A DNA stretch of 64,000 bases, taken from IMG/VR virus record IMGVR_UViG_3300007623_000006, positions 1-64,000 of that record; one strand, 5' to 3'. Every line of letters starts with the position of its first letter. Positions within the stretch are counted from its first letter, which is position 1. This document shows, one piece after another, positions 1 through 27,610 of the stretch. The position numbers and the translations under genes were made by a program. Source of the stretch: a virus. The notes under the pieces were generated by a model. It was not told where the DNA came from. It made no database searches and saw nothing but the letters and a program-made list of their open reading frames with translations.

Positions 1-939
1 AAACTAGGTGATGTTGTATCAGTAAAAGATGATGCAAATGACATTACATTCTGGTTATCATTACAAGATAATAACAGAAATGTTACTATACCTAATACAG
101 ATTGGTGGCAAGAAGTAACAGGATATATTGATAGAGGTGATACTTCATTTTATGAAGAATATGTAGATAGAACTAGGTTAGGTGAAGGTCCTACTAATCC
201 TGCTTTAAGTCCTACTCATATAAAAATTGATAATCCTTATGCAAGTGATGGTGTATTTTGGCTTAAACCTAATGGAGTAGCAGAAGCATTCCCTTGTTAT
301 TGTAAGTTTGATAAGTATGGTGCATGGGCATTGGTATGGTCAAACTTAAGAGGATTTAGAAATAGACCTACTACAGGTATAACTTATAATAGTGCTACTA
401 ATGGTACAGCCCCATTATGGAATATACCAAGTGGAATAGGTTTAGTAGATGAAAATGGTAATCCTCTTATCAATGGAAACAAAGAACTTTGGGAAGTATA
501 TACACCTCTAAATCTTTGGAATAAATTAATGGGTGACAAAAAAGGTAAATTGCAATACGAGTGGAGACATAACTATGGGTCTAAAATTGATAAAATGCTT
601 GTATGTGATATTGACCCATTTAATAGTAGTGACTTATACAGATTGAACATATCTAATGCAAAAACAGGTACACAAGCAGGTTTATGGAGTTATCATAGAG
701 GTAGAAGATTTTCTACATATGATAGTGATAATAATGGTGGAGTGCATAATTGTGCATCATACTATTCTAACACACCTTGGTGGTATGGTTACTGTTGGTC
801 AGGGTCTATTAATGGTGGTGGAGAAAATAATGGACACTCATATTATAATGGTGCATATTGGTACTCATCTTGTAGACACTGGGGAGTTTCTTCAGGTCAT
901 GGAGCAGGTAATGGATGGTTGTATATCCAGTTCACATAA
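1..939 (+). CDS. Tail fibre / receptor-binding protein, 3' part, with fibrinogen-like segment (5' truncated)
   Basis: The frame is open from the first base, so the gene starts upstream; 312 residues are visible. The first 40 residues resemble a small carbohydrate-binding module (a 'GDVV' strand, then a TDWWQEV ending). From about residue 77 the pattern ASDGVFWLKPNG, then CYCKFDKYGAWALVW, matches the opening of fibrinogen-like/intelectin-type domains (usually DGVYWI.PNG, C.M...GGWTLV). The C-terminal 70 residues are rich in Gly, Asn, Tyr, Trp, Ser and Cys, like an adhesin tip. I infer a distal fibre that binds host surface sugars. It lies directly upstream of the Fe-S/radical-SAM run with a 33-bp gap, so it could be a client of that run. 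The fibrinogen-like call is from motif recognition only. Confidence 0.7.
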   Translation, partial: KLGDVVSVKDDANDITFWLSLQDNNRNVTIPNTDWWQEVTGYIDRGDTSFYEEYVDRTRLGEGPTNPALSPTHIKIDNPYASDGVFWLKPNGVAEAFPCYCKFDKYGAWALVWSNLRGFRNRPTTGITYNSATNGTAPLWNIPSGIGLVDENGNPLINGNKELWEVYTPLNLWNKLMGDKKGKLQYEWRHNYGSKIDKMLVCDIDPFNSSDLYRLNISNAKTGTQAGLWSYHRGRRFSTYDSDNNGGVHNCASYYSNTPWWYGYCWSGSINGGGENNGHSYYNGAYWYSSCRHWGVSSGHGAGNGWLYIQFT

Positions 940-972: not shown

Positions 973-1974
973 ATGATTAAATTATCAGTAGCGTACACAA
1001 ATCAACTGTACCCTATTTTAAGAAAATACAAAGAGCATATCAATGATATCTACTTTAGCGATGGTGAGTTTGACTCAGCTAGAGGTAGTACATCATTCGA
1101 TGAAGGTGAACACTTATCTATTGAAGAGTTAAAAGAAATTAAATCGTTAGGTATAAAGCTTAACTATGTTCTTAACTCTCCTTACTTACCAAATAGGTTG
1201 TTAAACAAACACAAAGATATTACAGAACATTTACTTTCTCTTAAAGAAGAAGGATTAGTAGATATTATCACTGTTAATAATCTTATTTTAGCAAATAATA
1301 AGCATTTTATGAAAACTTTAAATGAGAACTTTGAAGTTAAAAATAGTGTTAATAATCATATTAATAGTGCTTTAAAAACTAAAGAAATTTGTGAAAGATT
1401 TCCTACAATTGATAATATTATTGTAGATAGAAGTGTTAACAGAAATCCGGAACTAATCAAAGAAATGGCAGACATTTGTCACTCATACGGCAAAAAAATA
1501 ACTGTTCTTATTAACGAAGGTTGTTTATATAACTGTATTTTTAAAAGAGATTGTGACTTAACATTTAGTAGTCAAGATAGTGTTGGTAGTGAAGATAATG
1601 GTATTTTCAACTGTTATAAAGAAAACTTCAAAAAACATAACGACAGATACCTTAAGTCTCCTTGGATGACTGCTGAGGGTGTTGAAATGTTAGAAGGTGT
1701 CGTTGACATATTTAAGATTAGTGGTAGATATGACCCACCAGATGAAATAGAAAAAAGAATTAGATATTACTTATACAATGACAGAGATGTTATGTTAAGA
1801 CATATACTTGATAAAGTTTTAAATGAAAAATATGATGAAATTTATAACTTAAGTATGATGGAATTATCAGTTTGGGGTATGTCAAGAACATTAACTAATT
1901 GTAAAAATGATTGTATGAATTGTGATAAGTGTGATGTGTTCTTAGAAAAATATAAGGAAGATAAAAATGACTGA
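973..1974 (+). CDS. U32-type Fe-S protein (peptidase U32 family-like), copy A
   Basis: This 333-aa protein has the marks of the U32 family, TIM-barrel-like proteins whose studied members (UbiU/UbiV, TrhP, RlhA) carry a 4Fe-4S cluster and act in oxygen-independent hydroxylation. Visible signatures are NEGCLYNC at residues 182-188 with further Cys at 194 and 214, and FKISGR at about 247-252, which corresponds to the K-I-x-G-R motif of the family. A second Cys cluster (CKNDCMNCDKC) closes the protein and may hold another metal site. It is paralogous to the protein at 2670-3626. The start follows a GAAAGG ribosome site at 961-966. Its stop overlaps the next gene by 8 bases, which suggests translational coupling. 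The substrate is unknown; RNA, peptide or small molecule are all possible. Confidence 0.72.
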   Translation: MIKLSVAYTNQLYPILRKYKEHINDIYFSDGEFDSARGSTSFDEGEHLSIEELKEIKSLGIKLNYVLNSPYLPNRLLNKHKDITEHLLSLKEEGLVDIITVNNLILANNKHFMKTLNENFEVKNSVNNHINSALKTKEICERFPTIDNIIVDRSVNRNPELIKEMADICHSYGKKITVLINEGCLYNCIFKRDCDLTFSSQDSVGSEDNGIFNCYKENFKKHNDRYLKSPWMTAEGVEMLEGVVDIFKISGRYDPPDEIEKRIRYYLYNDRDVMLRHILDKVLNEKYDEIYNLSMMELSVWGMSRTLTNCKNDCMNCDKCDVFLEKYKEDKND

Positions 1975-2668
1975 TTTAAACGAAAACCCGTTTTTAACTG
2001 CTATTATTAGACAAAAACAAGAAATCGAATTATTAAGAAATGAGTATGATGTGGCAGAAGATAGATTTGACCACATATTCACTATTAAAAAATTCAAATT
2101 AGATAATCAAATTCTTAGTTATATGGCTATGCCATTTGACTATGAACCTGAACTTGAGAAAAAAGAAATTGAAGCTAATGAATTGGATATTGTTAAACTT
2201 GGATTAATTACTAATGAACAAGTATACATTCTTAATGACTTAGATGTACAAGACCCTGGTCAGACTGTTATGTACGATGAAGAAACAGGTGAAGTATGGG
2301 AAATCAGAATAAAAGTTGAGTGTTTAATAGATGGTTCATATTTTGATGAAAATAAAAAAACTTGGATTTTACCTAAAGGTACTAAAGAAGCTAAGTTTCA
2401 TATTTACCCAATAAAAAACCAAAAAGAGCATTTCGACTTTTCTGAGTTTCACGAGTTTTCAATCAAGTCTATGGAAAAAATGACTAACTACATGATGTTA
2501 AACGACGAAGAAGGTCAAATAAAACTATACTTAGAAAAAGAACCACAAGATATTAAAGCAAACATTATTCAAGATTATTGGGAGCAAGTAATTAGAGTTA
2601 AACTTATCACTAAAGAAGGTGCTAAGAAATGGTTAACTCACTACATTTGTTTTAAAACTAAGGATTGA
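1967..2668 (+). CDS. Unknown partner protein of U32 copy A
   Basis: A 233-aa acidic, mixed alpha/beta protein that I do not recognise. It has no signal peptide, membrane segment or Cys motif. Its last 25 residues (RVKL-x9-WLTHYICFKTK) resemble the end of the 223-aa protein at 3623-4294 (RVKI-x8-LWLTAFIALRANK). Each of the two follows a U32 gene, so the pair looks like a duplicated two-gene module. The gene overlaps U32 copy A by 8 bases and is followed after one base by copy B, so it is surely co-expressed. It may be a chaperone, a substrate carrier or the substrate itself; the sequence does not say which. Confidence 0.6.
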   Translation: MTDLNENPFLTAIIRQKQEIELLRNEYDVAEDRFDHIFTIKKFKLDNQILSYMAMPFDYEPELEKKEIEANELDIVKLGLITNEQVYILNDLDVQDPGQTVMYDEETGEVWEIRIKVECLIDGSYFDENKKTWILPKGTKEAKFHIYPIKNQKEHFDFSEFHEFSIKSMEKMTNYMMLNDEEGQIKLYLEKEPQDIKANIIQDYWEQVIRVKLITKEGAKKWLTHYICFKTKD

Positions 2669-2669
2669 T

Positions 2670-3626
2670 ATGAAATTATCAATTCCTTATGTTAGAGGTA
2701 TATCTAAAATAATTAAAGAATATAAAAATAACATTTATGATGTTTATTTTACAGATGATGTACTTCAATCTGCTAGACCCAGAACTACACATAACACTGA
2801 ATATATGAACTTATATAAAGAAATGGAAGAAATAAGAGTACAAGGTGTTAAAAGAACTTTTCTTCTTAACTCTATAATGATTAATGACCCATCACTAAAA
2901 GATTTAAGAAGTGACCCAGTTAGAAAAACAGTTAATCATTTAGCAAGAATTAAGGATAAATATGATATAATAACTGTAAACAACTTAATGTATCTGTACG
3001 ACCCTGATTTTATAGAAGTTACTCAAGGTAAAAAATTAAAAAATTCAGTTAATAATAAAATTGACAGTTTATATAAACTGGAAGAATGTTTTAAAATTAC
3101 CGATTGGGATGCTATTAATATAGATAGAAGAATCAACAGAAACAATAAACTTATTAATCAAATGTGCAAAGCCGTTAGAGATAAGGGTGCAGTTTCATAT
3201 GTATTAGTAAATGAAGGTTGTCATTGGGACTGTATATTTAAAGAATATTGTGATATTTCTATGACAGACCGTAACCAAATGACATCATTTAGTTGTTTAG
3301 AACACTATAATATAGGTAAACCTGAAAGTTACCTTAAGACTCCATTATTATTTCATGATAATGTTCAACATATAGATGCAGATGTATTTAAAATAAGTGG
3401 TAGATTCAATCCTGTCGATATTATAGAAAAAAGAATAAGACATTACTTGTATGGTGAAAATATTACTTTAGGTGAATTAATTGATAAACCTTTTGAAGAA
3501 GGTGACCCAGTTGAGCATATGGACTATAAAACATTAAATAAATATAGTATGACAGAATACTTATACGATTGTAAAAATAACTGTTTAAATTGTAGTAAGT
3601 GTGACAATATAAGGAATATTTTATGA
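2670..3626 (+). CDS. U32-type Fe-S protein, copy B
   Basis: A 318-aa paralogue of the protein at 973-1974. Shared blocks include LSxxY near the start, a TVNNL strand, KNSVNN, a [IV]DR.[IV]NRN stretch, NEGCHWDCIF (copy A: NEGCLYNCIF), DVFKISGRFNP, EKRIR.YLY and the C-terminal CKNNCLNCSKC cluster. The putative Fe-S ligands are therefore conserved in both copies, which argues that both are active and not decaying duplicates. Identity is clearly partial, so the duplication is not recent or the copies have specialised. The next gene starts within the last four bases. Oxygen-independent hydroxylation is the known chemistry of better-studied U32 members; applying it here is inference. Confidence 0.72.
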   Translation: MKLSIPYVRGISKIIKEYKNNIYDVYFTDDVLQSARPRTTHNTEYMNLYKEMEEIRVQGVKRTFLLNSIMINDPSLKDLRSDPVRKTVNHLARIKDKYDIITVNNLMYLYDPDFIEVTQGKKLKNSVNNKIDSLYKLEECFKITDWDAINIDRRINRNNKLINQMCKAVRDKGAVSYVLVNEGCHWDCIFKEYCDISMTDRNQMTSFSCLEHYNIGKPESYLKTPLLFHDNVQHIDADVFKISGRFNPVDIIEKRIRHYLYGENITLGELIDKPFEEGDPVEHMDYKTLNKYSMTEYLYDCKNNCLNCSKCDNIRNIL

Positions 3627-4294
3627 TACCATTAACTAGAAAATTTTATAACTCTATAGTTTATCACAGGAAAGCAATTAACAGGTCAATGCCTATACTA
3701 ACTAGTGATTTTAATACTATCTCATTTATATACCACAAAGCGTCTGGTGTTGTTGAAAGTTTATCTTCAACACCACTATCACTAAGTGCAGATAATCAAT
3801 TTTTATATGAAGCCGTTAATCTTACAGAATTTACACCAGAAACAAAAGAACTAATAAGAAACTACAAACATACATTTGGTAAGAGTCAACTTATATGGGA
3901 CAGTGAAAAGAAAGAGTTTGATGTGTTAACATTAAACTACAATGTAAGAAAGTATACAAGATTTATAGAAGAAATTAATTTGTATGATGTAGACTATGAT
4001 AATGAATTTATTATAGATTTTAGTGTTACTAATCTTAAAGGAGAGGAAATTGATTTATCAAATTTTAGTGAAGTTTCACTAAAAAATATGGGTGATAAAG
4101 ATAAAAAGAATGATATGTCAATAAATAACATAAGCGGAAAGGAAACAATCCAGCTACCAAAAGAAAATGACCAATGGTTTAGAGTAACTATAAATGACTT
4201 TAACGAGGAAAATGTAGTTAGAGTAAAAATTAAACATATTGAACATCAAACTTTATGGCTTACGGCCTTTATAGCTCTTAGAGCAAACAAATAA
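3623..4294 (+). CDS. Unknown partner protein of U32 copy B
   Basis: A 223-aa protein not recognised. The central part is beta-rich and the C-terminus (RVKI, then LWLTAFIALRANK) echoes the C-terminus of the 233-aa partner of U32 copy A. It has no Cys, so it is not an Fe-S protein. Its start overlaps the U32 copy B stop by 4 bases (ATGA), the classic coupling arrangement. It is followed by the first radical-SAM gene 13 bases downstream, with GAAAGGA as ribosome site. A role as accessory or scaffold of the U32 enzyme is inferred from position only. Confidence 0.58.
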   Translation: MIPLTRKFYNSIVYHRKAINRSMPILTSDFNTISFIYHKASGVVESLSSTPLSLSADNQFLYEAVNLTEFTPETKELIRNYKHTFGKSQLIWDSEKKEFDVLTLNYNVRKYTRFIEEINLYDVDYDNEFIIDFSVTNLKGEEIDLSNFSEVSLKNMGDKDKKNDMSINNISGKETIQLPKENDQWFRVTINDFNEENVVRVKIKHIEHQTLWLTAFIALRANK

Positions 4295-4307: not shown

Positions 4308-5471
4308 ATGGTTTTTGATATTAATGTTACAAGTAGATGTAATCTTGCTTGTACTTATTGTTCAGAAGGTAATGAGTGTGGGTTGAGTTCAATTCAATCT
4401 GCTAACACGCAAGTCGATGTATTTGACTTATATAAATTTATAGACAAGTTTCCAGAGGAAGAAACATTTGAATTATTCTTCTGGGGTGGTGAACCAATGC
4501 TAAATTGGGCTTACTGTAAAGAGGTAATTGACCATTATATAGATGATAAAAGATTTGGTTTTTATTTTTATACTAACGGTATGTACATAGATAGATACTG
4601 GGATGATATTTTAGAATTACACAAAAAAACAAAATACCAAAATCATGGTGGAAAAGGTAGATTACACTTCCAAATTTCTTACGATGGTGACCCTATTAAT
4701 GAGATTGAAAGAATTGATAAAAAAGGTAAAACTGTTTCTTGGAAAGTTAAAGAAAACTATGAAAAATTAAGACAGGAAGGTATATCAACTTCTCTTAAGT
4801 CTGTTATTGTTGCAAGAAGTTTTAAACACATTTATGAAGCATATTTAGATGTATCTGCTATCAACTTTAACTATTCTCCTACACCAGATTCATTTTCACA
4901 AATGACAGAAGAAGAGTTTCAACCATTCTTAGATGAATTAGGTGAAGGACTAAAAAATATTGCTAAACACATATATGACAATAATTTACCACCTGAAACA
5001 TTTGCTTGGTTCCAAGATAGTAAAAAGTTATGTGGTGCAGGTAAAGGGTACTACTCAATCGACCTTAATGGAGACTTAAGTCCTTGTCATGGTTGTATGT
5101 ATAGAGACACCGATACACATAAAGTTGGTAATGTAAATGAAATCCTTGCAGATGATATTAATATTAAAGACTACTTAGAAACTGTTAGTCAAGCATACAA
5201 AGAAGGACACCATAAAACAAATGAGTGTTTATCGTGTGACGCACTTTATTGTTTAAAATGTCCAGTTGGGTGTTTTGACAAGTCTGACAAAGGACAAAGT
5301 GATAAGGCAAATGACGAATTGAGATTTACTGACCCTGAATATTTTGAAAAATGGTCAGATGCAAATGCAAATTGGCAAATGTGTAAAGTGTTTAAGCTTT
5401 CAGACAAATACCATAAAGCACTTAGATATGCACTTAACTTAAGAGCACAAAAATTACAAAATGTTAAATAA
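4308..5471 (+). CDS. Radical SAM protein with SPASM-type C-terminus (1)
   Basis: A 387-aa protein with the radical-SAM cluster motif Cx3Cx2C at residues 11, 15 and 18 (RCNLACTYC) and the SAM-binding GGEP at 60-63. The C-terminal third has a SPASM-like set of cysteines: 242, 260, 263, 307, 310, 315, 318, 322 and 359, including the G-x-L-x-P-C step of that domain. SPASM proteins of this size (anaerobic sulfatase-maturating enzymes, RiPP maturases) modify side chains of peptides or proteins, using SAM and auxiliary 4Fe-4S clusters. The cysteine-repeat protein at 8772-9917 or the fibre at 1-939 are candidate substrates. The gene ends inside a strong hairpin, so it may close a transcript segment. 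Confidence 0.85.
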   Translation: MVFDINVTSRCNLACTYCSEGNECGLSSIQSANTQVDVFDLYKFIDKFPEEETFELFFWGGEPMLNWAYCKEVIDHYIDDKRFGFYFYTNGMYIDRYWDDILELHKKTKYQNHGGKGRLHFQISYDGDPINEIERIDKKGKTVSWKVKENYEKLRQEGISTSLKSVIVARSFKHIYEAYLDVSAINFNYSPTPDSFSQMTEEEFQPFLDELGEGLKNIAKHIYDNNLPPETFAWFQDSKKLCGAGKGYYSIDLNGDLSPCHGCMYRDTDTHKVGNVNEILADDINIKDYLETVSQAYKEGHHKTNECLSCDALYCLKCPVGCFDKSDKGQSDKANDELRFTDPEYFEKWSDANANWQMCKVFKLSDKYHKALRYALNLRAQKLQNVK

Positions 5472-5522: not shown

Positions 5523-6614
5523 ATGTTTACATTAGAATTACTAGTTACAGAAAAGTGTAACTTAGGTTGTCCTTATTGTTATGTTGCTAATAAAAACAAG
5601 TTTATGACAAAAGAGACATTTGACAAAAAGTTTGACCAATTACATGACCTTGTTAGAAGAACAGGTGAGAAAGATTATCATATTTCTTTCTTTGGTGGTG
5701 AACCATTATTAAATTGGGAATTGATAGAGCACGCTGTTCCTAAATTTAAAGCAGACCCTCTTTGTAAAGGTATCGTTATTATTTCTAACTTTACACTAAT
5801 TGACCAAGAGAAATCTGACTTTTTATTAAAGAACGGTGTAGGTGTATCATGGTCATTTGATGGTATTACATCAAACGAAACTAGACCTCTTATTAAAACT
5901 CCCGAAAATGATGGTTACTACGGTACACCTGAAGGTATCCTTAAAATGTACGAAGATAAAAAGGACTTAATCCTACGGCATGTACAAGGTTGTAAATTTA
6001 TGGTATGGCCTGGTAATAGTCAATTAATGACAGAAAACTTAGAATTCTTTGCTGATTGGGGTATACCTTTCCCTGACTATTCACTTGTAAGAGATGATGT
6101 ATGGTCAATTGAGGATATTAAAAACTTTAAAACTGACTTAAGAGCACTAGGTGATAGAACTATTAAGTACCTTATGGAAGAAGAAAAAATGGTTATGCCT
6201 GGTTTCTTTAGTTTATCTATTATGGATTCTATGTTAGGACTATCTAAAGGTAAAAGACCATTTGGATGTTTTGCAGGTTGTAGAGGTGTTGCTATTATGC
6301 CTGATGGTGAGGTATACCCTTGTGCTAGATTTGGGTCTAAAAGAATTATGGAAATTGATGAAAATTATGATTTCTCATATTACCAAAGTAAGTTTAAACC
6401 TGAGAATTATGATAAATGTAAAACTTGTGACATTGAAAAAATATGTAATGCTGGTTGTACATACAGTCAGGTAAGAAACGACAACAAACCGTTAGACAGT
6501 ATTTGTGAATTATTTCACATTATTACAGAAGAAAGTTACAGAGTACTAGACGAGTGTAAAGACAGTCCGTTATTACAACAGTATTTCTTAAACGCATTTA
6601 ACAATATAGGATAA
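5523..6614 (+). CDS. Radical SAM protein with SPASM-type C-terminus (2)
   Basis: A radical-SAM protein of 363 residues from the ATG at 5523, placed 5 bases after an AAAGGA site; an in-frame TTG one codon earlier is less likely. The motif KCNLGCPYC sits at about residues 11-19 and FFGGEP at about 56-61. The C-terminus holds a typical SPASM pattern: C..GC with a GxxxxPDGxVYPC step (about 249-267), then CKTCDIEKICNAGC (about 299-312) and a last Cys near 328. It is closest in architecture to peptide/protein-modifying maturases. Its cysteine spacing differs from that of the radical-SAM protein at 4308-5471, so the two are unlikely to be recent duplicates. Confidence 0.86.
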   Translation: MFTLELLVTEKCNLGCPYCYVANKNKFMTKETFDKKFDQLHDLVRRTGEKDYHISFFGGEPLLNWELIEHAVPKFKADPLCKGIVIISNFTLIDQEKSDFLLKNGVGVSWSFDGITSNETRPLIKTPENDGYYGTPEGILKMYEDKKDLILRHVQGCKFMVWPGNSQLMTENLEFFADWGIPFPDYSLVRDDVWSIEDIKNFKTDLRALGDRTIKYLMEEEKMVMPGFFSLSIMDSMLGLSKGKRPFGCFAGCRGVAIMPDGEVYPCARFGSKRIMEIDENYDFSYYQSKFKPENYDKCKTCDIEKICNAGCTYSQVRNDNKPLDSICELFHIITEESYRVLDECKDSPLLQQYFLNAFNNIG

Positions 6615-6828: not shown

Positions 6829-7671
6829 ATGAAACAAGAGGAAAACAACAAACCTACCGAAAATGGTAATGTTAACATTTTGTATTTTACTACAAAATGT
6901 AACCTCGATTGTACATACTGCTATGAAGATTTAGGTAATAAAGAGAAAAAATCTACTTCTTTAGAAGACTTAAAAAAACAAGTCGATGAGATTATAGCAA
7001 CTGAACCAATTGATACTCAGACATTATTTGTATTATTTGGTGGTGAACCTACTTTAGAATGGGATAATGTTAAAGGTGTAGTAGATTATGCTTACAGTAA
7101 AAAACAAAATGTATTCTTTAATTTAGAAACAAATGGAATAAAATTTTTAGACCAAACTTTTCTAGATGATTACTTAGATTTTTTTAAAAATAAACCACAT
7201 TCACTTGATATATCATTTGATGGTATAGGCAATCACTTAAGACAAGACCATAAAGGTAATGATAGCACTCAACAACTATTAGATGTGCTACATATTTTTA
7301 AAGAATTACCTTGGGTTAATTGGAGAATACGATACACTATAACTAAAGCAAACTTTAAAGATTTTGCAAGTGATGTAGTTAAACTAGGTAAATCATTTGG
7401 ACCTAGAAGAATAATTACAAGTGAAGATAGTGACTCATTTACCCAAGCTGATTATTATCATATAAATAAACAAAAGACTGTTTTAAAACATCTTTGGGAT
7501 ACAGATAAGTTAGATATACCAATATGTAATATTTTCTGTGATAACTGTACAGGGTGTGAAAGCTCTAAAGCAAACAAAAGATATTACAAAGATGGTCAAA
7601 TGGTTGACAGTATTGAAGTCAAAGATAATCAAGGTGAGTTCTCACACTTTAAAACAAAAAAAGGCAAATAA
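6829..7671 (+). CDS. Radical SAM protein (3), short, with a C-terminal four-Cys cluster
   Basis: A 280-aa protein with KCNLDCTYC at residues 23-31 and LFGGEP at 69-74. No full SPASM domain is present. Instead the C-terminus has CNIFCDNCTGC (Cys 233, 237, 240, 243), which could bind one auxiliary cluster. A basic tail follows. It fits tightly between its neighbours: it begins right after the 69-aa gene and its stop shares a base with the next start. It is the third radical-SAM gene of the run and differs in architecture from the other two, so three different reactions or three steps are plausible. The substrate is unknown. Confidence 0.82.
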   Translation: MKQEENNKPTENGNVNILYFTTKCNLDCTYCYEDLGNKEKKSTSLEDLKKQVDEIIATEPIDTQTLFVLFGGEPTLEWDNVKGVVDYAYSKKQNVFFNLETNGIKFLDQTFLDDYLDFFKNKPHSLDISFDGIGNHLRQDHKGNDSTQQLLDVLHIFKELPWVNWRIRYTITKANFKDFASDVVKLGKSFGPRRIITSEDSDSFTQADYYHINKQKTVLKHLWDTDKLDIPICNIFCDNCTGCESSKANKRYYKDGQMVDSIEVKDNQGEFSHFKTKKGK

Positions 7672-8174
7672 TGAAAGAAAGCGAATACAAAGAACTTATA
7701 CAAGAAAAGTTTTATGATGTAATGTCTAAATCTGCAATTGTACAAGAAAAAAATCCTGAAATAGGTGAAGTTTTACAAGATATGACTGAGTTATTAGTGT
7801 TACTTTTTGAAAGACATTCAGAAGCATTTAAACACTTTGACAATAATATTATGGGGTTATCTGGTGATGTAGCACAATTACACCAAGAAGTACAAAATGC
7901 TAGTTCATGCTGTGGTACAGGTACTTGTGGTACAGGTTCAACTCAACCAGCAACACTTCAAGGAATGGAACAAGAAATGTCTGGAGAAATGTTTGACCTT
8001 GCTGCTGACATTATGGGTGGTGATAATGATAATAATGGATATGTTCAATATATAAATAATAAAAGAAAAGAAGTTAAAGAGTATGTTACTAAAGGTGAAG
8101 AAGTTGAGAATGAAACTCAATTAGATGCTGATATAGCAACACTAGGTAACTTTATAGATAAAAAATTGAGGTAG
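7671..8174 (+). CDS. Helical protein with a Cys-Gly-Thr-Gly island
   Basis: A 167-aa acidic protein, mostly helical by composition, not recognised. Around residues 82-95 it has SCCGTGTCGTGS, the only cysteines in the protein. A short Cys/Gly island inside a soluble helical protein next to radical-SAM genes could be a modification site or a metal site, so this is a second candidate substrate besides the heptad-repeat protein. Its start overlaps the stop of the third radical-SAM gene by one base. Confidence 0.58.
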   Translation: MKESEYKELIQEKFYDVMSKSAIVQEKNPEIGEVLQDMTELLVLLFERHSEAFKHFDNNIMGLSGDVAQLHQEVQNASSCCGTGTCGTGSTQPATLQGMEQEMSGEMFDLAADIMGGDNDNNGYVQYINNKRKEVKEYVTKGEEVENETQLDADIATLGNFIDKKLR

Positions 8175-8177
8175 ACA

Positions 8178-8762
8178 ATGATTTCATTAGACACAATACT
8201 TTACAAAATAAACCTTATGGTTAAAAAAGAAAAATACGATGATGCAATATTAGTATTAGAAAATGCAATTGAAGATGACTTAGTTAATACAGAAGATGAA
8301 AAAACACTTAGTATTAAATATTTACAATTGTTACTTTTAAGAAAAACACCTGAAGATATCCAAAACTTTAGAGAATGGTGTGAAAAGTTAAAAAAAGAAG
8401 AATTTGACCCTAAAATGTCAGAATATGTTTATAACTTTGTTTCTTATTTACTAACTTATGGTGAATTAACTTATACAGACGAAGAATATAAATTGTATAA
8501 GGAAATTATTAGTTGGAACAAAAAACACTTCTTTTATATTACTCTTGTATTAAATGAAATTTCATTTTTACATGAAAATCCAGAAGAAAGATTTGAAGCA
8601 CAGGTAACTGCAATGGAAGAGTTTTTTGAAGGATTAACTGACGAAGAAGAAGAATTAGCAAAAGAGTACTTTGGTGAGATTAAAGCTAAAATTCAATCTA
8701 AACCTGAATTAAATTCAGATGATACAAGAATGTTAGAATTATTTTACATTCTAGATATATAG
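8178..8762 (+). CDS. Helical (possibly TPR-like) protein
   Basis: A 194-aa, acidic, almost entirely helical protein. The N-terminal stretch with NLMVKKEKYDDAILVLENAI has the spacing of a TPR-like helical hairpin. It has one Cys and no signal or membrane segment. It lies 3 bases after the Cys/Gly-island gene and 9 bases before the heptad-repeat gene, so it may help fold or hold that product. Function is not known. Confidence 0.55.
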   Translation: MISLDTILYKINLMVKKEKYDDAILVLENAIEDDLVNTEDEKTLSIKYLQLLLLRKTPEDIQNFREWCEKLKKEEFDPKMSEYVYNFVSYLLTYGELTYTDEEYKLYKEIISWNKKHFFYITLVLNEISFLHENPEERFEAQVTAMEEFFEGLTDEEEELAKEYFGEIKAKIQSKPELNSDDTRMLELFYILDI

Positions 8763-8771
8763 GAAATTATT

Positions 8772-9917
8772 ATGGCAGTAAGTAAAGCATTATTAGACAA
8801 ATATATTAAATTATTCAAACTGCCTGCTGGGTCTACTTGGGATGATGTTCTAGCTGAAAGACAAAGAAGAAAAGATAATAGTAATCCTTGTTACACAAAT
8901 GCTACAAACTTTGACTACTCTGCTCAATTAACAGATGAACAAATCATTGAAAATATGAGAGATTCAATTGAAAGAGAAAAGAAAAGAAGAGCAGTCCAAT
9001 GGGATTACGAAGCATACTCTAGTTGGGAAGAAATCAAAGAATTAGCATACCCCGATAAACAAGAAACTGATATGACTGAAGTAGACAAAAAATATGTCGT
9101 TAGGTCAGAAGCAATTAGAGAGTTAATATCTAGAATTAATGCACTTGGGTCGTTTTCAGTACCTAATCCTGAGTCATACGAACCAGGACAAGTAATTAGT
9201 AAAGATAAAGTTAAAGTACTTGGTAAGACAATTAATGACAACGAAATAGCATGTCTTTGTGATTGTAACTACTGTACTTGTGATTGTAACTACTGTACTT
9301 GTGATTGTAACTACTGTACTTGTGATTGTAACTACCACGATAATTTAGTTAAGTCTTCATATTTTGGAACTACAACGGATTATGGAGATTCAGGTACTAA
9401 AAATAGAGGTAAAACAAGTGTAGATGATAAAACAGTTTGGGATAAAAGTGTAAACACAACAGATGGCACTATTTGGGCAATTGATTGGTGTAACTGTGAT
9501 TGTAACTACTGTACTTGTAATTGTAACTATTGTACTTGTGATTGTAACTACTGTACTTGTGATTGTAATTATTGTACTTGTGATTGTAACTACTGTACTT
9601 GTGATTGTAACTACTGTACTTGTGATTGTAACTATAAAAACGCTATGTATAGATATTGGTTCAGAGCAAACCCATACGACAGTACAAAATATGATGGTAC
9701 ACAATATGCGTATGGTTCAAGAAGTTCTAGCGGTAGTGTAAGTTCATACTGTACTTGTGATTGTAACTATTGTACTTGTGATTGTAACTATTGTACTTGT
9801 AACTGTAACTATTGTACTTGTAACTGTAACTACTGTACTTGTGACTGTAACTATTGTACTTGTGACTGTAACCAGTGTGTTGTATTCTACTACGGTAGAT
9901 GTAGAGCTTGGGGTTAA
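8772..9917 (+). CDS. Cysteine-heptad-repeat protein (17 copies of C-T-C-D-C-N-Y), probable substrate of the Fe-S enzymes
   Basis: A 381-aa protein. Residues 1-160 are a soluble, charged, helical leader-like domain. Residues 161-188, 240-288 and 327-368 hold 4, 7 and 6 perfect or near-perfect heptads of the form C-T-C-[DN]-C-N-Y, giving 51 cysteines in repeats. The blocks are separated by spacers of 51 and 38 residues rich in Ser, Gly, Thr, Tyr and Trp. The C-terminus ends CVVFYYGRCRAWG. Such density calls for metal binding, disulfide or thioether cross-linking, or enzymatic modification. The gene directly follows the radical-SAM/U32 genes and precedes the PP-loop gene, so a matured structural or surface protein is my inference. 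The layout of leader plus repeated core resembles multi-core RiPP precursors, but a metal-binding or solenoid structural protein fits as well. Confidence 0.8.
   Translation: MAVSKALLDKYIKLFKLPAGSTWDDVLAERQRRKDNSNPCYTNATNFDYSAQLTDEQIIENMRDSIEREKKRRAVQWDYEAYSSWEEIKELAYPDKQETDMTEVDKKYVVRSEAIRELISRINALGSFSVPNPESYEPGQVISKDKVKVLGKTINDNEIACLCDCNYCTCDCNYCTCDCNYCTCDCNYHDNLVKSSYFGTTTDYGDSGTKNRGKTSVDDKTVWDKSVNTTDGTIWAIDWCNCDCNYCTCNCNYCTCDCNYCTCDCNYCTCDCNYCTCDCNYCTCDCNYKNAMYRYWFRANPYDSTKYDGTQYAYGSRSSSGSVSSYCTCDCNYCTCDCNYCTCNCNYCTCNCNYCTCDCNYCTCDCNQCVVFYYGRCRAWG
9252..9335 (+). repeat. Cys-heptad block 1 (4 x 21 bp)
   Basis: Four tandem 21-bp units encoding C-[LT]-C-D-C-N-Y. The first unit has Leu for Thr. 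Units 2-4 are identical at the DNA level, which suggests recent unit copying or strong homogenisation. Confidence 0.95.
9489..9635 (+). repeat. Cys-heptad block 2 (7 x 21 bp)
   Basis: Seven tandem 21-bp units in frame with block 1. Unit 1 has Asn for Thr and unit 2 has Asn for Asp. A few synonymous AAC/AAT and TAC/TAT changes are present, so the protein pattern is kept while the DNA drifts. Confidence 0.95.
9750..9875 (+). repeat. Cys-heptad block 3 (6 x 21 bp)
   Basis: Six tandem units. Units 3 and 4 read CTCNCNY and the last ends in Gln instead of Tyr. GAT/GAC and TAT/TAC variation is higher than in block 1, which points to an older block under selection for protein sequence. Confidence 0.95.
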
Positions 9918-9933: not shown

Positions 9934-10926
9934 GTGAATATAATTTATTATAATTTTGATTATGAATATTTCACAAATATTTTATCGTTAAAAATGGAAG
10001 TGAGAGACGGAGGTCTTTCACTATATGAAAGTTTATTTAGTAGACTTTATGGTATTGGTGCTATAGATAGAACTAAAAAGTTACCTAAGTCTATTAATAC
10101 AGTATCTAAATTCCCTATTCCTAGTGTAATAACAGATTTACCTAGTTATAGTGAAATAGTAGAAGAAAATGCACAGAAAATTAAAAGTTCTTTTGTAGAT
10201 GATTTACCTGCAATAATGTATTACGACGGTTCAATTGATGCAACAGTTGCTTTATTAGCTATGGTTGATGTTGATGTAAAACCTGTTTTAAATGTGTCTG
10301 AGAGCGTCTACAACACACAAAAAGATTTAATTAGTAGTCTGGGTTTAGAAACTGTGATAAACGAAAAGAGAGAGTACGGAGAAGACATTAAACACTATAA
10401 TATTATTAATTATGCTTTAGGTAAAGTTATAAATGATTGTGATTATGCGTATTCTGTATCAAATGAAGATAGTTATTTAAATTTGGGTGTAGATGAATTT
10501 AAAACATACTTAGAGTCTTTATTAGTTAGCGATACATTAATTAATACATTAGATGAGCAATTTAACGCAATTATAAGCATATCACCGGTAGATTTAAATA
10601 CAGTATATAGTGTAATAAAATGGACATCTTTTAATTTTGCGTACCAAGGTCTAACTTTTGATAAATGGTACGACAATAAAACTGTATGGAGAGCAAATCA
10701 AACAGTACATAATTTTTATAATACTGATAAGTTTCAAAGATATAGTTTAAATAATATTAATAAAGAAATTAGCGTAGATAATTTTAAGATTGATGCTCTA
10801 GACTATATAAAATCTAAAACTGATAAGTTTGCAGGAAAAGGATTAGTGTACATAGATGATACTAAAACTGCTTTAAGATTTATTAGTGATGAATATAAAC
10901 CATTTAGAGACATTGGATTTGATTAA
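9934..10926 (+). CDS. PP-loop ATPase-like protein (asparagine-synthase / ATP-pyrophosphatase fold), divergent
   Basis: A 330-aa protein starting at GTG, with AAAGGAG 5 bases upstream. Residues about 92-105 read AIMYYDGSIDATVALLA, which fits the PP-loop pattern (SGGxDS followed by a hydrophobic helix) in a degenerate form, and the next strand/helix layout is right for that fold. PP-loop enzymes adenylate a substrate to form amides, thioamides or modified bases. In RiPP clusters, asparagine-synthetase-like members form lactams. As the last gene of the run it may act on the heptad-repeat protein. The loss of the canonical SGG means activity is uncertain. It overlaps the convergent minus-strand gene by 4 bases. 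Confidence 0.5.
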   Translation: MNIIYYNFDYEYFTNILSLKMEVRDGGLSLYESLFSRLYGIGAIDRTKKLPKSINTVSKFPIPSVITDLPSYSEIVEENAQKIKSSFVDDLPAIMYYDGSIDATVALLAMVDVDVKPVLNVSESVYNTQKDLISSLGLETVINEKREYGEDIKHYNIINYALGKVINDCDYAYSVSNEDSYLNLGVDEFKTYLESLLVSDTLINTLDEQFNAIISISPVDLNTVYSVIKWTSFNFAYQGLTFDKWYDNKTVWRANQTVHNFYNTDKFQRYSLNNINKEISVDNFKIDALDYIKSKTDKFAGKGLVYIDDTKTALRFISDEYKPFRDIGFD

Positions 10927-15465: not shown

Positions 15466-16773
15466 TTAACTTATACTGATAGTACCATCACCATTATCTA
15501 CAACAGAACCAACAATTGTTGAATCTTGTCTACCATATTTTTCATTGTCAAGTGTATACATAGTATCTATTAAGTTTGAGAATGTTGTGCTTTCTGTACC
15601 TAAATATTTCCATCCATTAACAAAAATGTCATATTTAATACCAATTGAGAAATCTAATACAGGGAAATCTAAATTAATATCAAAATTAATATCTTCAATA
15701 ATAACATTTCTAGTATCAAATACTCCTTTAGTCATATCTAGTTCTAATTCAGAAACTTCGTCATATGTAGCACCTACTGGTCTTCTGTTCATTAATAACC
15801 CTCTTGGTGAATAATGTAATTTGTTAACATCTGTTTTAAATCTTTGCATTTTACTGTACTTAACCACTTCATAACCATTTGTATCTTTCATTACAAGTTT
15901 ACCAACAACATAAACTTTTTTAGATTTAGTTAATAAAGCAACATAATTATCACCAGCAATAGCAGTATTAATAATAGTATCTGAATCGTATTTATCACCT
16001 GCATTTGGTAAAAATTTATTTAATAATACCCATTGATGTGTCGCATAACCTATATTATCAGTAAATTGATGATTTAAGTTTGAACCACATGCCCATACAT
16101 TGTTATTTTTTCTAATTATAGTGAAATCATTCCCACATGCTACTTCATATACATTAGCACCGTCGTATGAATTTCCATCAAAATCAACCCCTACTAAAGA
16201 AGCTTCAACTGAATATATTCCTCTATTCATTGATGATGTAAAGTTTGTATTAGATAATTCAGAAACAGGAGTATATATATTTCTATCAGCATAATCACTT
16301 AAATCAGTGAATACTACTTTTTTTGGTACATAAACGATGTCATTTACACCACTTACTCTAGAATCGTTCAATACTCCACATTGACCATAAGAGTTATCAC
16401 CCCATAACCATACATCCCCTTTACTATCTAAAGCTACATTGTGGTTTAATCCAGCATCAACTGAAACTATATTAACATTCTCAGGGAATGTAACATATGC
16501 AGGGCTGTATCCGTTTTCAATCGAGTGTGTATTCGACCAACCTAATTGACCTTTAGAGTTGTCACCAAATGTCATAACTCTATTATCCATTGTTAAAACG
16601 ATAGTATGGTTTAAACCTGTTGCCACTTGTCTAACACTATCCATAATCTTTTTTTGTTCTTTAGAAAAACTAGTAGTGTCAGTACTAATACCTAACTGAC
16701 CATATGTATTACTTCCAACTCCATATAAACCACTGTTTTCATCTATGAACATAGCGTGATATGATAAAATCAT
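15466..16773 (-). CDS. RCC1-repeat (beta-propeller) protein 1
   Basis: A 435-aa protein whose first 240 residues carry RCC1-type repeats, each with a G.N..GQLG core: GVGSNTYGQLG, FGDNSKGQLG, LWGDNSYGQCG and ACGSNLNHQF. The C-terminal part, with DFSIGIKYDIFVNGWKYLG, is a separate beta domain. RCC1 propellers are common in eukaryotes and occasional in bacteria; in phages they are rare and probably serve as structural binding modules. It is grouped with a 508-aa protein and a second RCC1 protein on the same strand. I infer a tail or fibre accessory. Confidence 0.8.
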   Translation of the reverse strand: MILSYHAMFIDENSGLYGVGSNTYGQLGISTDTTSFSKEQKKIMDSVRQVATGLNHTIVLTMDNRVMTFGDNSKGQLGWSNTHSIENGYSPAYVTFPENVNIVSVDAGLNHNVALDSKGDVWLWGDNSYGQCGVLNDSRVSGVNDIVYVPKKVVFTDLSDYADRNIYTPVSELSNTNFTSSMNRGIYSVEASLVGVDFDGNSYDGANVYEVACGNDFTIIRKNNNVWACGSNLNHQFTDNIGYATHQWVLLNKFLPNAGDKYDSDTIINTAIAGDNYVALLTKSKKVYVVGKLVMKDTNGYEVVKYSKMQRFKTDVNKLHYSPRGLLMNRRPVGATYDEVSELELDMTKGVFDTRNVIIEDINFDINLDFPVLDFSIGIKYDIFVNGWKYLGTESTTFSNLIDTMYTLDNEKYGRQDSTIVGSVVDNGDGTISIS

Positions 16774-25763: not shown

Positions 25764-25778
25764 TTAATTCCCTACTAT
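25756..25778 (-). terminator. Hairpin at the 3' end of clpP
   Basis: An 8-bp stem (ATAGTAGG / CCTACTAT) with a 7-base loop that contains the clpP stop. It is a near copy of the hairpin at 22166-22192, and both sit at the end of leftward genes. Confidence 0.5.
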
Positions 25779-26345
25779 TTCATCTATAAGACCATATTCA
25801 AGTGCTTCTTCTGCACTCATAAAAAAGTCTCTATCTGTGTCTTTTTCGATAACTGATATGTCTTTACCTGTTTGTTCAGATAATTTACCGTTTAATATGT
25901 CTTTAAGTCTTTGAATTTCTTTATATTGAATTTCAATTTCTGTTGCTTGACCTTGAGCACCACCTAAAGGCTGATGTATCATAATTCTTGAACTTGGTAA
26001 TGATACTCTTTTACCTGGTTCACCAGCTGATAATAAAAATGCACCCATTGATGCTGCTTGACCAATACATACAGTTTTTACAGGTGATGTAATAAAGTTC
26101 ATTGTATCATATATAGCCATACCACTTGTAATAACTCCACCTGGAGAGTTAATCCATAATTGAATCTCTTTACCTGGGTCTGTAGTCTCTAAAAATAACA
26201 TTTGTGCAACAATTGAATTTGCTACATCATCATTAATCTCAGTACCTAAAAATATAATTCTATCTTTAACTAATCTAGAGTAGATGTCGTATGTTTTTTC
26301 GACACTTCCACTCTTCTCTATAACTGTTGGTAAGTAATAACTCAT
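25764..26345 (-). CDS. clpP: ClpP-family serine protease
   Basis: A 193-aa protease of normal ClpP length with an intact catalytic triad: Ser 99 in [11 protein letters not shown], His 124 in MIHQPLGG and Asp 173 in [13 protein letters not shown]. Oligomer-forming segments such as INSPGG are conserved. It forms a barrel that degrades proteins fed by an AAA+ unfoldase. Here the partner clpX is immediately upstream and overlaps it by one base, so the phage encodes a full ClpXP machine. It could remove host regulators or scaffold, or replace the host enzyme. Confidence 0.95.
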
Positions 26346-27610
26346 TAATTTCCTTTTTCTACTAAAGTTGGTAACTCTTTACCTTTTTTACTTAGGGACA
26401 TTATAACATTATCTTTGTTAATTTTAATGTCACTAGTATCACCTATATTATACATATATGGTGTTAATATTTTTTCCATAATTTTCTTTAACCCTCTAGC
26501 ACCTACATTTGTACTTATAGCCTCTTCAGCAATACCTTCTACTGCTAGTTTGTCAAAAGATAAATCAACATTATCTACACTAAATAATGACTTATATTGT
26601 TCTATAAGACTGTTTTTAGTATTTAATAATACACTTACTAAGTCTTCTTTTTTAAGTGTGTCTAATGTAACTTGTACTGGTACTCTACCTAAAAATTCTT
26701 GTAAAAATCCAAATTCGATTAAGTCTTCTGTTGTTAATTCATCTAACCAATCTTCATTTTCTTTTGTAATTTTAGTATGTCTATCTTTATCAAATGAAAT
26801 AACTTTATCATCTTGTCTTTCTTTGATAATGTCAATTAGTCCATCAAAAACTCCTGACATAATAAAAAGAATATTACTTGTATCAATTTCAATCATTTTT
26901 TGGTCATGTGGATTTTTTACAAAATCAGGTGGAACTTGAATTTTATTACCTTCAATCATTTTAAGTAAATTTTGTTGAACACCTTCACCTGTACTGTCTT
27001 TACCATTTTTTTCAGGTTTTTTGGCAATTTTATCAACTTCATCAATAAAAATGATACCTCTTTCAGTTTTTCTAATATCTTTACCCGACTCTATATAAAG
27101 TTGAGTTAACATACTTTCAACATCTGAACCAATATACCCTGTTTGTGTAAGACTAGTTGCATCTGAAATAACAATAGGTACATCCATTATTTCTGCTAAT
27201 TTTTTACTAATAAATGTTTTACCAGACCCTGATGGTCCAATCATCATAATATTAGATTTGTCTACAGTAATATTTTTTGATTTTTTTAATGCTAATCTTT
27301 TATAATGATTGTGAATAGCAGTAGTTAAAACAATTTTTGCTCTATCTTGTCCTATAACATGCTCATTTAATTCGTTGTGTATTTCTCTTGGCTTTTTAAG
27401 TTTAGCAGCAATATCATCTATATCACCGTCAAATTCATCTTTAGCCTTAGGACCATCTCTTCTCTCTTGTTTCTTTTCCGTTATTACTTCGTTAGCTGAT
27501 TCAACACAAATCTTACAAATATTGATTTCGTCTTGCTCATCTAGAACAGAAGTTAACATTGGATTTAGTGGAGTTTCTCTTTTTCCACAAAAACTACATT
27601 TTTTAAACAT
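26345..27610 (-). CDS. clpX: ClpX AAA+ unfoldase
   Basis: A 421-aa ClpX with its N-terminal zinc domain (Cys 5, 8, 32, 35), Walker A GPSGSGKT at 125-132, pore loop GYIG at 158-161 (GYVG in E. coli), Walker B IDEVD at 189-193, and the ClpX C-terminal [13 protein letters not shown] sensor region. The ClpP-docking loop, IGF in E. coli, appears as ISF in the shorter loop before FDKDRH. It unfolds tagged substrates and passes them to ClpP. The complete domain set argues for an active enzyme. A -10-like TATAAT stands about 30 bases upstream. Confidence 0.95.

Follow-up and report, generated by a model that had tools for sequence, protein, structure and literature searches.

We describe a tandem of two gene pairs at positions 973-4294 of a phage genome, consisting of four genes, all on the + strand, that encode U32-like enzymes and partner proteins in turn. 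We read this arrangement as a tandem-duplicated enzyme-partner unit within an operon that would mature fibre proteins, the partners acting as clients or adaptors of their enzymes; taken as a whole, we regard this reading as tenable, if a little short of probable.

Layout of the two-pair module

The window, by which we mean the whole stretch of DNA analysed, comprises the first 64 kb of a virus record that is 111,096 bp long, and inspection of the encoded proteins (sheath, portal, major capsid, clamp loader, UvsX-like and other replication proteins) points to a T4-like phage. The record starts within a gene, and the resulting open-ended reading frame (1..939, + strand) encodes the last 312 aa, at the C-terminal end, of a protein of fibre/adhesin type that contains a fibrinogen-C-like domain (PF00147, E=3.9e-8, 33.8 bits; cut-off, 22). 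Open reading frames for two U32-partner gene pairs follow exactly where the first-pass annotation, made from the sequence alone, had placed them: U32-like A (973..1974, + strand, 333 aa), a putative TIM-barrel Fe-S-type enzyme recognised by its sequence relatives and a predicted model; partner A (1967..2668, + strand, 233 aa); U32-like B (2670..3626, + strand, 318 aa), identified as a paralogue of A by alignment and tree; and partner B (3623..4294, + strand, 223 aa). Starts and stops overlap or abut at the junctions among these four genes, an AAAGG/AAGGA-type ribosome site lies upstream of each start, and co-transcription of the genes for U32-like A and B is implied. The module was also present on a second contig, IMGVR_UViG_3300026123_000028, which is near-identical (two single-base indels, zero mismatches) and represents an assembly of the same phage, so that the module stands without an independent second example.

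Elsewhere in the window, a protein with RCC1-like repeats (PF13540; 18316-19197, - strand), unusual for a phage structural region, is encoded together with a protein similar to it by eye (15466-16773, - strand). Inspection of translations further revealed adjacent ClpP-like and ClpX-like phage genes at 25764-27610 (- strand).

Relationship to the U32 family

The first-pass annotation had named both enzymes U32. As formal family membership the name fails: neither protein reaches the gathering score of PF01136, and no U32 label was returned for A or B by Pfam, NCBIfam or PHROGs. As a distant branch it holds, via a predicted TIM barrel and a relative of U32-like A, the 'peptidase' of Klebsiella phage HMGUkp2 (25% identity over 266 aa, E=1e-5), which itself clearly belongs to PF01136 (43.6 bits; cut-off, 22.4). 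Divergent U32-like relatives from radical SAM loci scored 12.9-18.1 bits with PF01136 and thus also stay under the cut-off.

An AlphaFold model (43 sequences; pLDDT 73, pTM 0.78) displays the beta/alpha pattern of a TIM barrel, as in the Mk0906-like fold, with low confidence for the putative Fe-S loop at residues 187-228. A Foldseek search against the PDB returned generic TIM barrels only, of which three reached E<=0.001; U32 entries were absent from the matches listed. In a second-look structural alignment, the U32 structure 5d88 ranked third (Z 13.2 across 195 residues), on a par with other TIM barrels, and the fold match is therefore not specific to U32. A profile of 43 relatives gave no meaningful match to PDB sequences, and four U32 proteins from E. 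coli gave weak matches in profile comparison (probability 5-12%). On the level of motifs, the KIEGR of E. coli UbiU, TrhP and RlhA corresponds to FKISGR or FKLHGR in the phage proteins. Residues N181, C184, C188, K248, G251 and R252 are invariant across the family, while E182, C214, C310, C314, C317 and C320 are near-invariant. The usual U32 four-cysteine motif, CX6CX15CX3/4C (PMC6747719), was found in neither protein, the cysteines concerned being 184, 188, 194 and 214 in A and 184, 188, 194 and 209 in B. Judged by sequence, A and B are a distant branch that we file outside formal family membership, and we chose the label 'U32-like' given the lack of a direct Pfam match, the weak E. coli profiles and the atypical cysteine spacing.

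Comparison of the two gene pairs

The two U32-like proteins align along their length (35% identity over 325 aa, E=3e-60) with all eight clustered cysteines conserved, just as the earlier annotation had it. In each protein's own numbering, Cys 140, 184, 188, 194 and 310/314/317/320 of A align with Cys 140, 184, 188, 194 and 301/305/308/311 of B, the Cys 140 pair lying outside any cluster, and C214 of A aligns with C209 of B. In a tree of 48 family members, A and B are sisters with a support of 100/99, both on long branches.

The partners were initially thought to resemble each other over their last 25 residues; the similarity is real, and its extent had been understated. A single C-terminal segment of 89 aa aligns at 33% identity (E=3e-7), so that about 90 residues of partner B are homologous to partner A. 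The local score of 92 was reached by none of 2000 shuffles (mean 37.6, maximum 69). When the halves were compared separately, the C-terminal ones gave z=12 and the N-terminal ones z=0.7, and neither alignment nor shuffle test detected any similarity between the N-terminal halves. The sister position of A and B, along with the paralogous C-terminal halves of the partners, supports the paired duplication proposed at first, with enzyme and partner probably duplicated as a unit; or the tandem may have been assembled from paralogous parts, the front halves of the partners having since diverged or been replaced.

Phage relatives of the U32-like enzymes

An alignment search of viral contigs yielded at least 559 stretches encoding U32-like relatives, of which 80 were fetched. 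Counted per fetched locus rather than per independent lineage, and with flanks of varying length, all 80 sampled loci carry a single U32-like gene, and 79 of the sampled relatives combine the U32-like domain and a class I methyltransferase in one fusion protein. In 38 loci, a gene for a 2OG-Fe(II) oxygenase is located nearby, mostly directly downstream (PF13759 in L013, for example), and neither a radical SAM match nor the Cys repeat described below was found in any of the 80. In Prochlorococcus phage P-HM2, the relative PHM2_101 resides among tail-fibre genes, and similar surroundings were seen in the U32-like loci that were read gene by gene. A constant link to fibrinogen-type fibres was considered and dropped, as it appeared in one of the 80 loci (L116), via a P-HM2 neighbour gene without a Pfam match. 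We also noted that the loci L060-L139, L011-L013 and L008 belong to the PHROG 1458 U32-like family, with the methyltransferase fused, but in L012 encoded separately by a following gene.

The same phage encodes a third U32-like protein beyond the window, at positions 77840-78949 of the record (L004:13840-14949). Its gene is preceded by a DUF6445 gene and forms part of an array in which pairs of small tail-type genes are repeated (record 69739-80242); in the tree, this copy is separate from A and B and belongs to the branch of the methyltransferase type.

These surroundings bear on the substrate. The U32-like proteins might modify RNA (tRNA or rRNA) in the manner of TrhP and RlhA, their position in tail loci being incidental, and indeed the best-studied U32 relatives hydroxylate RNA according to PMC6599085 and the annotations of TrhP and RlhA. 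Against this stand the presence of the family in at least 559 viral contigs, the methyltransferases and 2OG oxygenases of the sampled loci, the tail-fibre regions of the loci read in detail and the count of zero tRNA genes within the window, and we consider a role in RNA modification very improbable.

The single-copy state of the relatives also speaks to the relation between A and B. UbiU and UbiV, themselves neighbouring paralogues, pair up as a heterodimer in which each subunit has one [4Fe-4S] cluster (PMC6747719), and the adjacent paralogues A and B, with co-transcription implied, could likewise constitute one heteromeric enzyme, the partners being accessory subunits of a single complex. 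However, a U32-like gene that occurs alone in 80 of 80 relatives indicates that the fold can do without a paralogue, A and B share their cysteine sets whereas those of UbiU and UbiV differ (PMC6747719), and the partners were duplicated or kept in step with the enzymes. We therefore judge a single heteromeric complex to be decidedly unlikely.

The partner proteins

Why should each of the two enzymes be followed by a partner of its own? A lack of partners next to U32 copies had been named in the first-pass annotation as grounds for refuting a joint function, and this is what the wider family shows: a partner is missing from all 80 sampled related loci and from the surroundings of the third U32-like gene of the same phage. 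Searching viral_contigs with partner A, partner B or alignment A3, which comprises both, recovered only the same-phage contig IMGVR_UViG_3300026123_000028. Alignments A3 and A2 found no confirmed relative in genome_contigs, and tblastn with partner A against 50,697 phage records gave zero matches. Compared with 213 neighbour families and the window's own open reading frames, the partner profiles reached a best probability of 5%, and no partner-like protein was detected elsewhere in the same phage by profile search. Given its absence from the sampled loci and next to the third copy, the partner is, as far as sequence comparison (including Pfam, NCBIfam and PHROGs) can tell, an orphan addition to a single duplicated U32-like branch rather than a component that the enzyme requires in general.

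The first-pass annotation had suggested the partner as a possible carrier or substrate. As partner B contains no cysteine and partner A only two, we rejected a role as metal or Fe-S carrier as unlikely. The partners could instead be ordinary virion proteins of the tail fibre or baseplate, their C-terminal likeness reflecting a structural module without any functional link to U32. Such an origin would agree with their low cysteine content, with the mostly strands suggested at low confidence by a partner structure model (pLDDT 31) and with the small tail-type array that encloses the third U32-like gene of the same phage. It would leave unexplained the strict U32-partner-U32-partner alternation, and the profile search showed partner-like proteins to be absent elsewhere in the phage and from the compared neighbour families; we thus consider ordinary virion proteins unlikely. 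The alternation suggests that each enzyme has its own partner as a client or adaptor.

The downstream radical SAM cassette

The module is followed by three genes for radical SAM enzymes, all on the + strand and all above the PF04055 gathering score of 29.5 for the superfamily: rS1 (4308..5471; PF04055 41.1 bits), a radical SAM/SPASM enzyme whose SPASM match of 24.3 bits likewise exceeds its cut-off; rS2 (5523..6614; 42.0 bits), also a radical SAM/SPASM enzyme, sharing about 37% identity with radical SAM proteins from Campylobacter phages; and rS3 (6829..7671; 63.3 bits), in which no SPASM domain was detected. With 81.4, 130.3 and 83.1 bits, rS1-rS3 fall short of the cut-off of 340 for PapB-type ranthipeptide maturases (NF047865). 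The gap between rS3 and the Cys-repeat gene holds a gene for a protein of 167 aa (7671..8174, + strand), which has no confident family in Pfam, NCBIfam or PHROGs and for which a small open reading frame occupies the corresponding place in other loci, as well as a gene for a 194-aa protein (8178..8762, + strand) without assigned function in the same databases. The open reading frame at 8772..9917 (+ strand) encodes a Cys-heptad protein, (YCTCDCN)n, a likely client of the radical SAM enzymes. The translated 330-aa protein encoded last in the cassette (9934..10926, + strand) has no function assigned by Pfam, NCBIfam or PHROGs.

A DNA pattern for the (YCTCDCN)n repeat matched 40 viral contigs, and the ends of many repeat proteins resemble tail-fibre chaperone domains. 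Of the 39 repeat loci besides this phage's own (within L019-L058, some being near-copies of one another), 29 have homologues of rS1-rS3 in the vicinity of the Cys-repeat gene, and several share the order rS1-rS2-rS3-repeat. At four loci (L036, L047, L050 and L054), a divergent U32-like gene adjoins the radical SAM genes near a Cys-repeat fibre gene. Several radical SAM genes are packed together in these four, and some of them contain glycosyltransferase-type genes. There is scarcely any overlap between the 80 U32 loci and those with the Cys repeat, and the link between U32-like enzymes and the Cys repeat therefore rests on five loci, this phage included.

Proposed function

The operon probably serves to tailor the phage's own fibre proteins. 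Fe-S proteins of the U32 family perform O2-independent hydroxylation (PMC6747719). Each U32-like enzyme may hold a [4Fe-4S] cluster and carry out an oxygen-independent modification of side chains in the fibre/adhesin or in the partner, which by analogy with UbiU/UbiV, TrhP and RlhA would most likely be a hydroxylation. A and B could act side by side or as a UbiU-UbiV-like heterodimer. Each partner would be either a dedicated client or an adaptor delivering the client to its own enzyme, with the conserved C-terminal ~90 residues as a common domain for docking or structure, and with specificity coming from the unrelated N-terminal halves. The radical SAM enzymes probably target the Cys-heptad protein, by analogy with maturases of Cys-rich peptides. 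In its most general form, our hypothesis would make phage U32-type Fe-S enzymes oxygen-independent hydroxylases of the phages' own tail fibres, found here with a co-duplicated dedicated partner as a modular enzyme-client system; this we put forward as a rather doubtful proposition.

The U32 functions cited here all relate to either RNA or quinones. A large branch of phage U32-like enzymes in tail-fibre loci, with methyltransferase fusions and with 2OG oxygenases or radical SAM enzymes as companions, would suggest a role in protein modification and also phage receptor-binding proteins that are chemically matured. The occurrence of such enzymes in tail-fibre loci is of broader interest than the duplication itself, and the duplicated pair offers a compact system for questions of enzyme-client pairing.

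Comparison with known systems

Literature on phage U32 proteins, RiPP U32 proteins and radical SAM or tail-fibre maturation yielded no description of this system. The Campylobacter phages CP220, CPt10 and CP21, whose radical SAM modules have been published without a function (PMC2853527), have the Cys-heptad repeat in common with our phage and also encode a homologue of its radical SAM enzyme (37%), whereas no U32-partner pair was seen in them. The UbiU-UbiV heterodimer resembles the present module in being encoded by two adjacent U32 paralogous genes; here, in contrast, a partner gene follows each enzyme gene, the context is that of fibres and no UbiT-like gene was identified. Phage families PHROG 1458/36869, without assigned function and including PHM2_101 of P-HM2, contain the same U32-like domain in tail-fibre loci, but as a single copy, usually fused to a methyltransferase and without a partner gene, while A and B form a separate branch. 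With peptidase family U32 (PF01136; UbiU/UbiV, TrhP, RlhA and Mk0906 = 5d88), the phage proteins share the predicted TIM barrel, a conserved set of cysteines that follows a late strand of the barrel, and the motif K-[IL]-x-G-R, which reads FKISGR in our phage and KIEGR in UbiU, TrhP and RlhA. They differ from it in cysteine spacing, with CX3CX5CX19C in A and CX3CX5CX14C in B instead of CX6CX15CX3/4C, and carry an additional C-terminal CX3CX2CX2C set.
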